From: Anas platyrhynchos | Lineage: Eukaryota; Chordata; Aves; Anseriformes; Anatidae | Direction: 5' to 3' | Length of the DNA stretch: 64,000 nt | NCBI RefSeq assembly: GCF_047663525.1 | Contig: NC_092603.1 | Location: 537,501 to 601,500, forward strand | Shown here: piece after piece, positions 5,781 through 54,815 of the stretch | Position numbering within the stretch: the first letter of the stretch is position 1 | How the letters are laid out: each line of letters opens with the position of its first letter | Notes under the pieces: generated by a model | Databases searched by the model: none | The model's input: the letters and a program-made list of their open reading frames with translations, nothing else | Told to the model about the DNA's origin: nothing | Program-made: the position numbers and the translations under genes

Positions 5781-5889
5781 GAGCCCCAAACCCCCCAAAA
5801 CAATCCCAAAACCCCCCAAAATTCAGACACGATGGGTCGAAACAACACCGGGGGTCAACTTTTGGGGTCCCGGCGCGGGGGTCCCGGTG

Positions 5890-8628
5890 ATGGGGGGGTC
5901 TTTAACACCCCCCCCCCCCAAAATTCCTCAAGGAGGCACCGAGGAGGCGGCACCGCGGTCCCCGTCCCCACCGGCGGAGCCCCCCGGCAGACCCCAACGA
6001 CGCGGCGGAGGTGCCAAAAAAAATTCGGCGACCGCGACCCCGTGCACCCAATGCGTCCGCGGCGGTGCCACCACCACCACCAAATCCCGGCGGTGCCGCG
6101 GCGGTGCCGTCACCGTGGTCCCCGAAAAGCCGCACCGGTGCGCCGAGTGCGGCAAGGGCTTCAGCCGCGGCTCCAACCTGGCCCAGCACCGGCGGATCCA
6201 CAGCGGGGAGCGGCCGCACCGGTGCGGGGATTGCGGTAAGGGGTTTATCCAAAAATCCGACCTCGAGCGGCACCGGCGCGTCCACACCGGCGAGCGGCCG
6301 TACCCGTGCGGTGATTGCGGCAAACGCTTCAGCGTCAGCTCCCACCTGGACCGGCACCGCCGAACCCACGCCGGCGTCGCCGGGAGGTCGGGGGTCCAAC
6401 CCCGCGGGCGTTCGGTGGAGCCGGGGGGGGAAATTGGGGTTTTGGCACCCGCCGGCGCCCCGTTTCGGTGCGGGGAGTGCGGGAAGGGGTTCGGGCAGCG
6501 CGCGGCGCTCGGCAAGCACCGCAAGACGCACGGCGCCGAAAAGCCGCACCGGTGCGGGGATTGCGGCAAGAGCTTCAGCCGCGGGTCCAACCTCACCCAG
6601 CATCGCCGAATTCACACCGGGGAGCGCCCCTTCGCCTGCGGGGATTGCGGTAAAGGATTTATCCAAAAATCCGACCTGGAGCGCCACCACCGCGTCCACA
6701 CCGGCGAGCGGCCGTACCGGTGCGGCGAGTGCGGCAAAAGCTTCAGCGTCAGCTCCCACCTGGAGCGGCACCGCAAAATCCACGCCGCCGCCGCCGAGCG
6801 CTGCCCGAAACATTCGGAAGGGTTTTTGGCCGCCCAAAAACATTCGGAAGGTTTTTTGGCCGCCCAGCAGCGCCGCGGGAGGCTCTCCAAGTGCCGGGAG
6901 TGCGGGCGGTGTTTCGGGCACGGCGCGGCGTTGCTCAAGCACCAGCGGGCGCACGCCGGGGGGCGCCCCCCGCCGCGGTGCCCCGATTGCGGTGAGGAGG
7001 AGGAGGAGGATGAGGAGGAAGGTGGGAGCGTGGTGGTGGCACCCGAAAAACCCTACAAGTGTGGCGAGTGCGGGAAGGGCTTCGGGCAACGCTCGGCGTT
7101 GGTCAAGCACCGGCGCATCCACACCGGGGAGAAGCCCTACGCTTGCGGTGATTGCGGCAAGGGCTTCATCCAAAAATCCGACCTCACCATCCACCGGCGC
7201 ATGCACACCGGGGAGAAGCCCTACAAGTGCCCCGAGTGCTCCAAGTGCTTCAGCGTCTCCTCCAACCTCCTGACCCACCGGCGCACCCATCTCGGCGAGA
7301 AGCCCTACGGCTGCCCCGAGTGCGGCAAGAGCTTCATCCAGCGCTCCGAGCTCACCATCCACCGGCGCGTGCACACCGGGGAGAAGCCCTACAAGTGCCC
7401 CGAGTGCGCCAAGTGCTTCAGCCGCAGCTCCCACCTCAACCGGCACCAGCGCACCCACGCCGGGGACAAGGGCAAGGCCAACGCCGCGGCCAACGGCAAC
7501 GCCGGCGGCAACGTCATGGCCAACGGCAACGCCAACGCCAAAATCAACGCCAACGTCAACGTCATGGCCAACCCCAACGCCAACGTCAACGCCTACGTCA
7601 ATGGTAACGTCAACGCCAACGCCATGGCCAAGGTCAACGCCATGGCCATCACCAACCCCAACGTCAACCCCAACGTCAACGCCATGACCGACGTCAACGC
7701 CATGGCCAACGGCATCACCAATGCCAAAATTAACGCCAATGTCAACACCAACGTCAACTCCAACCCCAATGTCAACTCCATGGCCAACGTCAACACCAAC
7801 GTCAACGCCATGGCCAACATCAACGCCAACTCCATGGCCAACGTCAACGCCAACGTCAACGGTGGCGTCAATGCCATGGCCAACGTCATCACCAACGCCA
7901 AAATCAACGCCAATGCCAACGTCAACTCCAACGCCATCACCATGGCCAATGCCAACGTCAACGTCAACACCAAATCCAACGTCAACTCCAACGTCAACAC
8001 CATCACCATGGCCAACGTCAACGCCAACGTCAACGGTAGCGTCAATGCCATGGCCAACTCCAACGTCAACACCATGGCCAACACCATCACCAACGCCAAA
8101 ATCAACGCCAACATCAACACCATGGCCAACGTCAACGTCAACTCCAACGCCATCACCATGGCCAACGCCAACGTCAACGTCAACACCAAATCCGACGTCA
8201 ACTCCAACGTCAACGCCATCACCAACGCCAACATCAACTCCAACGTCAACACCAACGCCATCACCATGGCCAACGTCAACGGTAGCGTCAACGCCATGGC
8301 CAACGTCATCACCAACGCCAAAATCAACGCCAACGCCATGGCCAACATCAACGCCAACTCCAACGTCAACTCCAACGCCAATGTCATCACCAACGTCAAC
8401 GCCATGGCCAACGGCATCTCCAACGCCGCCCCGGCCCCGCCGCTGCCCCCCGGCGCCTTCCCCGCCCCCCCGCTGCCCCCCTTCCCCGCCGCCCCCGCCG
8501 CCCTGCCCCTGCCCCCCCTGGAGCTGCCCTGGGCCCTCCCGTTCCCAACCCGCGCCTTCCCCCCCCCCGCCTTCCCCCCGGCCGCGTCCCCCCCCGGGGC
8601 ACCCCCGGCCTCCTCCCTCATCAATTGA
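5890..8628 (+). CDS. C2H2 zinc-finger protein with NxN repeat tail
   Basis: Open frame of 912 residues from ATG 5890 (G at -3 and +4, a good Kozak context) to TGA 8626. It may still be the 3' exon of a longer gene. Residues 1-80 are Pro/Arg/Gly-rich with no KRAB, SCAN or BTB signature. Residues about 82-523 hold 13 Krüppel-type fingers (CxECGK-F-x-H-x-H with TGERP/TGEKP linkers). Helix sets such as RGSNL, QKSDL and VSSHL recur in the same order, so the fingers grew by duplicating three- to four-finger modules. Finger 7 is followed by a duplicated [10 protein letters not shown] spacer, and finger 8 by a short acidic run. Residues about 527-844 are an Asn-alternating repeat, and the last 68 are Pro/Ala-rich. 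It is probably a nuclear DNA-binding regulator. The targets are unknown and no specific orthologue was recognised. Confidence 0.85.
7480..8425 (+). repeat. Coding hexamer repeat (AACGTC/AACGCC)
   Basis: A 6-bp periodic array inside the zinc-finger reading frame. Codons alternate AAC with GCC, GTC, ATC, ATG or ACC, giving NANVNANV-like protein for about 310 residues. Because 6 is a multiple of 3, expansion never breaks the frame. The antisense frame is correspondingly Leu/Ala-rich. Confidence 0.9.
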
Positions 8629-10679: not shown

Positions 10680-10990
10680 GGGTGAGGTAGGGGCACCCAT
10701 GGGTGCTGAGTACCATCAAAGTCCTGATATCGTAGTGTTTGACCCCAAAACGTTATTGGGGTGCTGGGTGCCACCCCGAGGGCCAGGCGGGGGGCACCCA
10801 TGGGTGCTGGGCGTCGCTCCCATTAGTCCAACGGGTGCCACCCCGGGGTGCTGGTGACGTCTTGGAGGGTCACCCCAAAAGGTGGGGAGGGTCCCGGGTG
10901 GTCCCATCAGCGGGCAGCCCCCCCGGCCGTGCCATTTTGGGGGTCCAGGGTGGGCGACAGCAGCAGCGGGCAGGAGGCACCCATGGGTGC
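10680..10990. repeat. 14-bp palindrome GCACCCATGGGTGC, three copies
   Basis: The perfect inverted repeat occurs at 10693-10706, 10794-10807 and 10977-10990, with a degenerate fourth copy near 11156. The copies span the end of IER3 coding sequence and its 3' UTR. Confidence 0.8.
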
Positions 10991-11272
10991 CCCCAAGTGC
11001 GTCCTTACGAGGGTCCCGTTGGGTGGGCACGTTGTCACCGCCGTCCTGGGCAGCTCCTGGGTCACAGAGGGGGGGTTCAAGGTCACGTCGGGTGTCACCG
11101 GGGGGGTCACGGCCGTGTCGGGTGTCACCGGGGGGGTCACGGCCGCCTCGGGTGCCACCATGGGTGCCGCGTCCCCCGGCGCGCTGTAGACCTGGGCGCC
11201 CACCACGGCCAGCAGCAGGATCAGCAGGCGCTTGGCCGCGCTCGGTTCCTCCGTCGGGGGCGGCCTTCGCAC
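10907..11272 (-). CDS. IER3: IER3 exon 2 (membrane and C-terminal part)
   Basis: The acceptor TTTTAG at 11273 is followed by a frame that joins exon 1 in phase 0. The joined stretch P-A-V-R-R-P-P-P-T-E-E-P then AAKRLLILLL aligns without gaps to the mammalian IER3 segment ending EEPNPAKRLLFLLL. The Leu-rich stretch is the single hydrophobic segment of IER3 (IEX-1), a stress-induced regulator of ERK signalling and apoptosis. The remaining tail is Thr/Pro-rich with an internal duplication (AVTPPVTPD twice) and reaches TGA at 10907. It has no obvious counterpart of the conserved mammalian C-terminus, so a small frameshift or lineage divergence here is possible. The predicted protein is 179 residues against 156 in human. 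Confidence 0.85.
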   Translation of the reverse strand: MRRPPPTEEPSAAKRLLILLLAVVGAQVYSAPGDAAPMVAPEAAVTPPVTPDTAVTPPVTPDVTLNPPSVTQELPRTAVTTCPPNGTLVRTHLGAPMGASCPLLLSPTLDPQNGTAGGAAR

Positions 11273-11339
11273 CTAAAAGAGGTAAAAAATTAAAAAAAAT
11301 TGGGTTAGAAATTCATTTTTGGGGGAAAAAAGGCATTTT

Positions 11340-13510
11340 TTGGTGAAGTTCCAAGCCCCGGTTACAACCCAGTAGAGATCGCGTTGGGGAACCCATCCAA
11401 GAGGAAACCGGGGCGGACCCTGCTTAGCTTCCAAAACGATCCAGGGGTAATAATCCCTAATTAAGTCTAATTAATTGCCCCCGGGGGAGGAATGCTGCCC
11501 TGGGAGGGCAATAATTAACCCCTATAACCCCACAGCACATATATTAGAAATTTTTGGGGAAAAAAAAGCATGATTTGGGGAAAAATCCCCCTCCTGGTTA
11601 CAACCCCATGGGGTTTTCATTAGGGAACCCATCCAAGAGCAAACCCGGGCGGACCCTGCTTAGCTTCCAAGACGATCCAGGGGCAATAACCCCTAATTAA
11701 TTGCAATTAATTGCAATTAATTGCCCTGGGGGGCAATAATTAACCCCTACACCCCCCCTGCATATTGGTTAGAAATTTTTGGGGAAAAAAAAACATGATT
11801 TGGGTAAAAATCCCCCTCCTGGTTACAACCCCGTATAACTCATGTTAGGGAACCCATCCAAGAGGAAACCCGGGCAGACCCTGCTTAGCTTCCTAAACAA
11901 TCCAAGGGTATTAACCCCTAATTAATTGCAATTAATTGCCCTGGGGGGGCAATAATTAACCCCTACACCCCCCCCGAACATGGTTTAGAAGTTTTTTGGA
12001 AAAAAAAACGCAATTTGGGGAAAAATCCCCCTCTTGGTTACAACCCCATAGAGTTTGCATTAGGGAACCCATCCAAGAGCAAACCCGGGCGGACCCTGCT
12101 TAGCTTCCAAGACAGTCGGGGGGTAATAACCCCTAATTAATTGCAATTAATTGCCCTGGGGGGCAATAATTAATCCCTACATCCCCCCCGCACATGGATT
12201 AGAAATTTTTGGGGAAAAAAAAACATGATTTGGGTAAAAATCCCCCTCCTGGTTACAACCCCATAGAACTCATATTAGGGAACCCATCCAAGAGGAAACC
12301 CGGGCGGACCCTGCTTAGCTTCCAAAACGATCCGGGGGTAATAACCCCTAATTAATTGCAATTAATTGCCCTGGGGGGCAATAATTAACCCCTACACCCC
12401 CCTGCATACTGGTTAGAAGTTTTTGGGGAAAAAAAATGTAGTTTTGGGGAAAAATCCCCCTCCTGGTTACAACCCCGTATAACTCATGTTAGGGAACCCA
12501 TCCAAGAGGAAACCGGGGCGGACCCTGCTTAGCTTCCAAGACAGTCGGGGGGTAATAACCCCTAATTAATAGCAATTAATTGCCCTGGGGGGCAATAATT
12601 AACCCCTACACCCCCCTGCATATTGGTTAGAAATTTTTGGGGAAAAAAAAACGCGATTTGGGGAAAAATCCTCCTCCTGGTTACAACCCCATGGAGCTCC
12701 CGTGAGGGAACCCATCCAAGAGCAAACCCGGGCGGACCCTGCTTAGCTTCCAAAACGATCCGGGGGTAATAACCCCTAATTAATTGCAATTAATTGCCCT
12801 GGGGGGCAATAATTAACCCCTACACCCCCCTGCATATGGGTTAGCAATTTTTGGGGAAAAAAAAAACAATATTTGGGGAAAAATCCCCCTCCTGGTTACA
12901 ACCCCATGGAGATCGCGTTGGGGAACCCATCCAAGAGGAAACCCGGGCGGACCCTGCTTAGCTTCCAAAACGATCCGGGGGTACTAACCCTTAATTAAGT
13001 CTAATTAATTGCCCCTGGGGGAGGAATGCTGCCCTGGGAGGGCAATAATTAACCCCTATAACCACACAGCACATGGGTTAGAAATTTTTTGTGGAAAAAA
13101 AACACGATTTGGGTAAAAATCCCCCTCCTGGTTACAACCCCATGGAGATCGCGTTGGGGAACCCATCCAAGAGGAAACCCGGGCGGACCCTGCTTAGCTT
13201 CCAAAACGATCCAAGGGTATTAACCCCTAATTAATTGCAATTAATTGCCCTGGGGGGGCAATAATTAACCCCTTGACCCCCCTGCATATGGGTTAGAAAT
13301 TTTTTGGGGAAAAAAAAAACAATATTTGGGTAAAAATCCCCCTCCTGGTTACAACCCCATAGAACTCATGTTAGGGAACCCATCCAAGAGCAAACCCGGG
13401 CGGACCCTGCTTAGCTTCCAAAATGATCTAAGGGTATTAACCCCTAATTAAGCCTAATTAATTGCCCCGGGGGGGGCAATACTGCCCTGGGGGGGGGCAA
13501 TAATCACCCC
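11340..13510 (-). repeat. Ten-copy tandem array of 5S-rRNA-derived repeat in IER3 intron
   Basis: Units of 214-217 bp, with two 236-bp intervals and one of 225 bp. On the minus strand each unit contains GGAAGCTAAGCAGGGTC, 14 bases, then CTTGGATGGG. Both blocks and their spacing match the internal-promoter region (box A to box C) of vertebrate 5S rRNA, while the rest of 5S is not preserved. The remainder holds the palindrome TTAATTGCAATTAA and, on the minus strand, T5 and T7-T8 runs 45-65 nt beyond box C that resemble RNA polymerase III terminators. Cores start (plus-strand position of TGCTTAGC) at 11421, 11657, 11882, 12097, 12312, 12526, 12740, 12955, 13191 and 13408. Confidence 0.85.
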
Positions 13511-13554
13511 CTTGACCCCCCCCACCCCTTCCTTCCCCCCCCCGTGGCTCCACG

Positions 13555-13655
13555 CGGGGCTGAGTCACCCGGATTGTGACTCACCCCCCCCCCCGGAAAT
13601 GAGCCGCTTCCTGCCCCCCCCCCAGCCCAAATTTGGGCTCCCCGGGGGTATAAAA
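13555..13655. promoter_or_regulatory. AP-1/ETS cluster and plus-strand TATA box in IER3 intron
   Basis: Just inside IER3 intron 1 are TGAGTCA (about 13561) and TGACTCA (about 13576), both consensus AP-1 sites, then CGGAAATG and CTTCCTG ETS-like cores, then TATAAAA at 13649-13655 on the plus strand. It could be an intronic enhancer of this immediate-early gene or a promoter for an antisense transcript through exon 1. Confidence 0.5.
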
Positions 13656-13717
13656 AGGGGGGGGGGCCCCCCCCAGCCCCCCAAAAACCCCCCTCAGAGC
13701 CAGGCCGAGGTACTCAC

Positions 13718-13891
13718 AGCGGGCGGGTAGAGGACGCGGCGGTGCCTGCGGCGGGGCCTGGGGGCTCCGCTGGGCCCGGAGGGGGGCTCGAAGGTGAAAT
13801 AGCGGGGGGGGGTCGGCGCCAGCCCCCCCGGAGCCCCCCAGACCCCCCCGCTGGGGAACGGAGCCGCCGCCGCCGGAGCCGTCGCCGCCAT
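13718..13891 (-). CDS. IER3: IER3 exon 1 (N-terminal half)
   Basis: ATG at 13891 in strong context (GCCATGG) opens 58 codons ending at a GTGAGT donor. After an Ala/Pro/Gly-rich start come YFTFEPPSGP and RPRRRHRRVLYP, matching the mammalian IER3 FTFDPLPEP and RKRSRRVLYP blocks. The FTF motif lies where mammalian IER3 has its ERK-interaction motif, and the basic run corresponds to its nuclear-localisation region. Phase 0 at the exon end joins exon 2 exactly. A TATA box lies about 36 bp upstream of the ATG, so the 5' UTR must be very short or transcription starts close to the ATG. Confidence 0.88.
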
Positions 13892-18085: not shown

Positions 18086-19144
18086 CCCGAGGAGGCAGAG
18101 AGCGGCAGCCCCGATCCTGCCGTGTATTCGCGTCCGAATCCTCGCGGGGCGGCCGATAATTACAGGAATAATAATTAACGAGGCGGGGGGGGGGGGTTAA
18201 TTAACGCCCCCAGGGCCCCCTGAGTCCCGTGGGGAGGGGAGGAGGAGGAAGAGGAGGAGGAGGATGAAGGGCAATGAGGATGAAGGCTGGAGGAAGAGGA
18301 TGGTGATGAAGGAGGAGGAGGAGGAGGAGGCTGGAGGAAGAGGATGGTGATGAAGGACGAGGATGAAGGAGGCTGAGAAGAGGATGAAGGACGAGGAGGA
18401 GGAGGAGGAGGAGGAGGATGAAGGCTGGAGGAAGAGGATGGTGATGAAGGCCGAGGAGGAGGAGGAAGAGGAGGAGGAGGAGGATGGAGGCCGAGGAGAG
18501 GATGAAGGACAAGGAGGAAGAGGAGGAAGGAGGAGGATGAAGGAGGATGGAGGAAGAGGATGGTGATGAAGGCCAAGGAGGAGGAGGAAGAGGAGGAGGA
18601 GGAGGCTGGAGGAGGGAGGAAGAAGGGAGGAAGAGGAGGCTGAAGGAGGAAGAGGAGGCTGAGGGAGGAAGAGGAGGCTGATGAAGAAGGCCAGATGAGG
18701 AAGATGAGGCTGAAGGAGGAAGAGGAGGAAGATGGAGAAAGAGGAGGCTGAAGGAGGAGGCCAAAAAATGCAGATGAGGCTGAGGAAGATGAAGGCCAGG
18801 TGAGGAAGAGGAGGCTGAGGGAGGAAGATGAGGAAGATGGAGGAAGAGGAGGCTGATGAAGGAGACCAGGTGAGGAAGATGAGGCCAGGTGAGGAAGATG
18901 AGGCTGTGGGAGGAAGATGAGGAAGATGGAGGAAGAGGAGGCTGAAGGAGGAGGCCAAAACTGGAAAACGAGGCCGAGGAAGAGGAGGCCAGGCGAGGAA
19001 GAGGAGGCCGAAGGAGGAAGAGGAGGCTGCGGGAGGCAGATGAAGGCAACAGAGGCCGTGGAGAGGAAGAGGAGGCTGCGGGAGGAAGGCCGGGGGGAGG
19101 CTGAGGAGACCCGGGGGGTCTCGGGGGGGGTCTTTGGGGGGGTC
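18086..19144 (-). repeat. DDR1: DDR1 3' UTR region with purine-rich GAGGAG array
   Basis: Downstream of the DDR1 stop lies about 860 bp of imperfect GAGGAGGA/GATGAAGG units (plus-strand purine). Unique sequence at 18086-18200 follows and contains, on the minus strand, AATACA (18123-18128), a weak poly(A) signal variant. Placing the DDR1 3' end here is inference. Confidence 0.5.
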
Positions 19145-54300: not shown

Positions 54301-54815
54301 CCTGCTAATTAAGCCCCCCTAAAGCAGTTAATTAAGCTCTCCCAAAGCAGTTAATTAAGACCCCCTAAAACAGTTAATTAAGCCCCCAAATTGTTAATTA
54401 ACACCCCCCCCAAGCAGTTAAGCCCCCCAAATAGCTCATTAAGCCCCCCAAATGGTTAATTAAGCCCCAAATGGTTAATTACCCCCCCAATGGTTAATTA
54501 AGCCCCCCTAAAGCAGTTAATTAAGCCCAAATTTGTTAATTAAGCCCCCAATGGTTAATTAAGCACCCCAAAATGGTTAATCACCCCCAAATGGTTAATT
54601 AAGCTCCCCTAGAGTAGTTAATTAAGCCCCAAATTTGTTAATTAAGCCCCCAAATTGTTAATTAAGCCCCAAATTTGTTAATTAAGCCCCCCAGAGCACT
54701 TAATTAAGCCCCAAATTTGTTAATTAAGCCCCCTAATGCTTAATTAAGCCCCCCAAATACTTAATTAACCCCCCCCCCAGCAGCTAATTAACCCCTAACG
54801 GTTAATTAAAGCCCC
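54300..54815. repeat. GTTAATTAAGCCCCC array
   Basis: About 25 units of 18-20 bp with TTAATTAA in most copies, giving a dense series of TAATTA homeodomain-type cores in an otherwise C-rich context. Confidence 0.92.

Follow-up and report, generated by a model that had tools for sequence, protein, structure and literature searches.

The window analysed here, a 64,000-nucleotide stretch of the Anas platyrhynchos genome (contig NC_092603.1, here C17:537501-601500), carries on its minus strand a two-exon gene that reads from an ATG at 13891 to a stop codon ending at 10907 (positions given without a contig are those of the window). Conceptual splicing places the first exon, counted from its ATG up to the splice donor, at 13718..13891 and the coding part of the second, as far as the stop, at 10907..11272; the letters at the boundaries of the 2,445-bp intron between them (11273..13717, minus strand) are GT..AG. 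We take this gene to be IER3, a stress gene, from protein motifs in the spliced product; when the spliced protein was compared with Pfam models, none matched. Within the intron lies an array of ten tandem units (11303..13521, minus strand), placed by a tandem-repeat search and by the positions of the sequence blocks described below, with the same orientation as the host gene, as the original prediction had stated. The phase of the array and its outer ends are an arbitrary choice of ours. The array region has a GC content of 0.45-0.51 and a CpG o/e of 0.20-0.57, and the adjoining first exon is more CpG-rich.

Tandem repeats are common throughout the window, with 526 TRF rows in 64 kb, many of them overlapping, and much of its non-coding DNA is minisatellite-like. 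A long open reading frame on the plus strand (5887-8628) encodes zinc-finger-like repeats followed by a long Asn/Ala/Val-repeat tail, the latter lying over a minisatellite of a 36-bp type. The part of the IER3 intron near exon 1 (13560-13660) has on its plus strand TGAGTCA at 13561, GTGACTCA at 13576 and TATAAAA at 13649, a group that could be an antisense promoter or an enhancer.

The ten units follow one another head to tail on the minus strand, and each encloses a 41-bp core comprising box A, the GG of the intermediate element (IE) and the first part of box C. They are u1 (13521-13305, core 13379..13419), u2 (13304-13069, core 13162..13202), u3 (13068-12854, core 12926..12966), u4 (12853-12640, core 12711..12751), u5 (12639-12426, core 12497..12537), u6 (12425-12211, core 12283..12323), u7 (12210-11996, core 12068..12108), u8 (11995-11771, core 11853..11893), u9 (11770-11535, core 11628..11668) and u10 (11534-11303, core 11392..11432). 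The units are 214-236 bp long and 77-93% identical to one another in pairwise comparison. As predicted, every one of them holds the block GGAAGCTAAGCAGGGTC, then 14 bases, then CTTGGATGGG, with 0 mismatches and the same spacing in 10/10 units. The box A block has ten exact matches on the minus strand, from 11416 to 13419, and still ten in the window when up to 3 mismatches are allowed, against a mean of 0.16 and a maximum of 2 in shuffled sequences. The box C block is exact at all ten of these places; searched alone with up to 1 mismatch, it gives 12 matches where 20.5 are expected and is unremarkable by itself.

The blocks are those of the internal control region of 5S rRNA genes. In 5S position numbers the array agrees letter for letter with 5S at 47-63 (box A), at G70 and G71 (IE) and at 78-87, so that box A, the IE GG and the box C core are all present at the exact 5S spacing in 10/10 units. 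These are the features that it shares with the type I internal control region of vertebrate 5S genes. It differs from that region in standing in the intron of an RNA polymerase II gene, in having no recognisable 5S RNA around the blocks, and at the end of box C, where a complete box with GAC at 89-91 is not found and TC replaces GA at 89-90 in all ten units. Compared with the 5S gene of the same genome, which forms a tandem array of a 253-bp repeat on C9, all ten cores are identical at 34-35 of 41 positions.

Beyond the core, any likeness to 5S is at best weak. Local alignment of four units to 5S gave scores of 47-53 against top shuffle scores of 27-31, with spans of 41-54 bp, and in these four units no flank stood clearly above the shuffles. 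When flanks were compared from anchored positions, 5 of 20 comparisons stood out weakly (u4, u5 and u8 downstream; u5 and u7 upstream), with 0-2 of 60 shuffles equally good. The remainder of 5S is unrecognisable by either approach, in agreement with the original prediction that it had been lost. The 5S descent assumed there found no significant covariance match: against Rfam 5S (RF00001) the sole match listed, the unit of core 4, reached 22.3 bits (E 0.15) where the cut-off is 38, and a search of the window at the curated gathering cut-off returned no Rfam match. A 5S rRNA relic or pseudogene is rejected on this score and on the 41-54 bp that align in the four units compared. What survives is the TFIIIA footprint, namely box A, the IE GG at 70-71 and the eight leading bases of box C.

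The footprint is also the most constant part of the unit, a preference for the promoter blocks that had been predicted and that a column count upholds. Over the 191 gap-free columns of the ten-unit alignment, 38 of 41 columns are invariant in the core and 89 of 150 outside it (hypergeometric p = 1.7e-5), the ten units of one array not being ten independent witnesses. With homopolymer columns removed the counts are 38/41 and 58/99, and dropping edge units leaves p values of 4e-4 and 7e-4. Among windows of 41 columns the core is the most constant (38), the best window off the core having 33 invariant columns. Two further stretches, GGGTTGTAACC and ATTATTGCCCCC, are likewise invariant in all ten units, so that the core is not the sole constant stretch.

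These figures bear on a neutral history of the array, in which the intron captured a fragment, either of 5S or of a TFIIIA-type site, and was filled with copies of it by slippage and unequal crossing over, as seems to have happened to much of the non-coding DNA in the window; the boxes would survive because the array is young or homogenised there. The abundance of tandem repeats in this window, the 77-93% identity between units and the presence of invariant stretches such as GGGTTGTAACC outside the core are all consistent with such a course. It is harder to reconcile with core columns that have changed less than equally old flanks (38 invariant columns against 33 in the best off-core window), and we regard it as rather unlikely.

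The original prediction had offered a satellite or a short interspersed element as the identity of the repeat, and on this point it finds no support. A whole-unit search of the assembly (1.26 Gb in 42 contigs), which scores the best candidates only and skips very common words, gave 11 matches, all at C17:548801-550981, which is the array itself. In the genome 64 places carry the exact two-block pattern, 54 of them in the 5S array on C9 and 10 in the IER3 array; apart from the array under study, this pattern is confined to the true 5S genes. Within the window, nhmmer found no further unit copy that was better than its reversed control, and blastn returned a few pieces of 29-39 bp, at 54677-54705 and 18181-18216, with E values of 0.002-0.02 against 0.024 for the reversed control; these match the non-core part of the unit only. 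The core had 0 matches in viral contigs and 0 in prokaryote contigs. As far as these searches reach, this is a single-locus array. Confinement to one locus speaks against a dispersed SINE or a genome-wide satellite, both of which are rejected within the same reach, all unit copies lying in the array and none forming a single-copy element. Such confinement also fits the neutral history. The scans recovered degenerate or displaced 5S copies as well: C34:1266767 and C34:13741110 are solitary near-intact copies, 99% identical over 118 and 108 bases, and C1:155626611, among the matches listed in a one-mismatch scan, is a decayed copy whose 3' part is still legible.

SINEs derived from 5S (the SINE3 class, AmnSINE1) carry 5S-type promoter boxes, and in its boxes the array resembles them; it differs in not being dispersed, with every unit copy that was found lying in the array. 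The closest tandem relative that we found is the frog satellite PcP190, a tandem repeat whose unit of about 200 bp combines a conserved, 5S-related part and a variable part (PMC11675491). Its conserved part is 120 bp long and about 69% similar to 5S, and the satellite occurs in many frog families, whereas the array keeps 41 bp of 5S at one locus. A conserved part matching most of the 5S transcribed region, as in PcP190, is not found in the duck units, which are tandem but align with only 41-54 bp of 5S. We found no title or abstract that describes the array, or the class of tripartite TFIIIA-type sites introduced below, in the literature searched, the scope of which excluded preprints and most subscription papers.

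Runs of T downstream of the promoter blocks, another feature of the original prediction, are present in every unit. A T5 starts 42 bases past the 41-bp core in 9/10 units, the exception being u10, and a run of T6-T10 stands at +59/60 in 10/10. The presence of these runs makes use by RNA polymerase III possible. On such a reading each unit would be a type I promoter that recruits TFIIIA, TFIIIC and polymerase III and yields short RNAs of about 130-150 nt, sense to IER3, whose start would lie some 50 bases ahead of box A and whose end would be the T5 or the later T-run. The regular position of the T-runs and the exact spacing of box A and box C would fit, as would the distance of about 50 bp from a type I start to the A-box downstream of it that is given in PMC12409998, and PcP190, itself a 5S-related satellite, is transcribed (PMC11675491). 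Against these points, box C is clipped at 88-90, and the T-runs may be there by chance in DNA that is built of T and G runs. Nor does folding favour a functional RNA: the one trial transcript folded was slightly more stable than shuffles (z -1.32), and the consensus fold of the units has a two-sided change in 1 of 52 consensus pairs. These two results leave function at the level of RNA unsupported, and we judge polymerase III units to be distinctly unlikely.

A different view of the array emerges from sites elsewhere in the genome. When up to 1 mismatch was allowed, a search with only the box A block found 81 places: 54 in the C9 array, 10 in IER3, 2 on C34 and 15 others, all of which were inspected. 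In five of the 15, 10-12 of the 12 letters of box C stand at the distance seen in 5S, and the CpG o/e is 0.62-0.99. The other ten are chance-like, with 1-6 of 12 letters at the box C distance and a CpG o/e of 0.00-0.48; one of these has a 10/12 box C match, but at the wrong distance. A search with both blocks, scored so as to penalise true 5S, found 35 places, against 6 with the reversed pattern, and added sites on C15, C18, C28 and C35. From the 35 we kept the ten IER3 units and ten others (two each on C6 and C15, and one each on C1, C16, C18, C28, C29 and C35), and dropped 15 as background, two after inspection and 13 on their matched letters alone. Among the candidates set aside, C26:1274055 was left out of the class as its blocks do not extend, and C8:28140127 is chance-like, with neither GG nor GAC and a CpG o/e of 0.07.

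A plain two-block pattern without mismatches occurs 55 times on C9, 10 times in IER3 and 10 times elsewhere, nine of the last in the class. The tenth exact place, C7:16872003, was rejected: both blocks fit, and it is without the GG, the GAC and the AAGC that precedes TAAGCAGGG. In a control with the spacer cut by one base, the exact pattern occurs at 3 places, one of which is a solitary 5S copy. At 1 mismatch the numbers are similar, at least 56 places for the true spacing against 40 for the shortened one, so that the excess is confined to exact matches and the class is small. At 2 mismatches the pattern scan is uninformative, with at least 110 places against at least 180 in its reversed control.

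The outcome of these scans is a set of eleven sites at nine loci outside the 5S genes, each with box A, GG and a box C that includes GAC, at the exact 5S spacing. They share AAGCTAAGCAGGG at 5S positions 49-61, with one site deviating at 54, and GGATGGG at 81-87, with one deviating at 84, followed by A or T at 88; these box letters are ascertained, each site having been found by its box words. The GG at 70-71 (11/11 sites) and G89, A90 and C91 (11, 10 and 11 of 11) were absent from the box A and penalising two-block patterns used for discovery. Away from the blocks the sites agree with 5S only in patches. As a pattern the motif can be written AAGCTAAGCAGGG-N8-GG-N8-TGGATGGGWGAC. Its three parts correspond to box A, the IE and box C, the elements of which a type I promoter consists (named in PMC12409998). 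All eleven sites lie in 500-bp stretches with a GC content of 0.64-0.78 and a CpG o/e of 0.64-1.00, and nine have no T4 run within 120 nt downstream. In this most of them are unlike polymerase III genes; polymerase III use is no general feature of the class, which weighs further against that reading of the array. That nine other loci keep these three blocks likewise counts against the neutral history.

Several of the sites lie near genes. In CpG-rich DNA at C6:26887818 there is a complete tripartite site, and about 3.5 kb downstream of it are exon pieces assigned by Pfam to RRP12, a ribosome-biogenesis gene. The site on C1 has an ankyrin-repeat exon about 1.7 kb away, and that on C16 has an ERp29 exon of the same strand about 1.5 kb upstream; lying past this exon, the site is not in the ERp29 promoter. 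Further neighbours, recognised by eye, are presumably ANKRD49, KCNIP2 and EXOSC1. At loci other than that on C16 the base composition suggests candidate promoters. A second, smaller cluster of sites is found at C15:16227905-16228142 (minus strand, CpG-rich), where three TFIIIA-type sites lie 112 and 87 bp apart.

The departures of the IER3 core from 5S largely follow the variation within this class. In the region 47-87 the core has seven majority differences from 5S, and all fall among the 19 positions that vary in the class, none among the 22 constant ones (p = 0.0022); when 88-91 are counted in, the contrast falls to 2/25 against 8/20 (p = 0.013). The IER3 units keep every constant position of the motif as far as 87, G70 and G71 included, and their box C end is incomplete: the GA at 89-90, for which they have TC, is retained by 10-11 of the 11 other sites. 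They differ from the class also in setting, the CpG o/e of 0.20-0.57 in the array contrasting with the CpG-rich DNA around the other sites. The best reading, to judge from these letters, is that the array would be the extreme member of a small class of TFIIIA-type sites outside 5S genes. We file it under this known kind of site, and not as a new repeat family or gene family.

How might such sites work? TFIIIA is a nine-finger protein that binds 5S RNA as well as DNA. Since eleven non-5S sites keep the blocks in CpG-rich DNA, nine of them without a T4 run, TFIIIA-type sites acting as DNA are the better supported reading, and we propose tentatively, with nearly even confidence, that the array is a cluster of such sites serving as a regulatory element of IER3. 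TFIIIA would occupy the array sites on DNA and act in cis on this RNA polymerase II gene shortly downstream of its first exon, and the presence of ten sites would confer high avidity. The similarity of the units and their single locus suggest that the array grew from one site by local tandem duplication. Because TFIIIA binds 5S RNA too, the sites may make expression depend on how much free 5S RNA there is. According to PMC12409998, fingers 1-3 of TFIIIA read the C-box and finger 5 the IE, and box C and the IE form the high-affinity part of the site; with box C clipped, weaker binding is predicted for the IER3 units.

The same sites might be read by another factor. Many zinc-finger proteins bind CpG-island promoters, and a different C2H2 zinc-finger protein could recognise this composite site, both in IER3 and at the CpG-rich loci, in keeping with sites that retain no other part of 5S, are CpG-rich and mostly lack a terminator. 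TFIIIA, however, already reads the three blocks with the letters and spacing of 5S, and it would take a coincidence for another protein to share this split footprint; we consider this reading very improbable. For TFIIIA itself the nearest parallel is the zebrafish Gtf3aa ChIP-seq study (PMC12953832), the available text of which describes relatively low-affinity binding at the promoters of protein genes, for example serpine2. The common point is TFIIIA, or sites of its type, outside 5S genes and at promoters, or candidate promoters, of protein genes. The zebrafish binding differs in its relatively low affinity and in coming with no motif in that text (PMC12953832), where the duck genome offers a sequence class and a tenfold array of putative sites.

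TFIIIA is usually described as a factor for one gene family. A bolder and rather doubtful extension of the present proposal would give it a second role in vertebrates, that of controlling a small RNA polymerase II regulon through tripartite sites in CpG islands, one of them near RRP12, at a level set by the TFIIIA that is free of 5S RNA; IER3 would have joined this regulon in the present lineage by way of the tenfold array that its intron holds. Even a neutral array would show that what stays constant in a tandem repeat can be a site for protein binding and need not be a gene. With eleven defined sites at nine loci and the ten-site array in IER3, the control of protein genes by TFIIIA, and feedback on them from the supply of 5S RNA, become directly testable.
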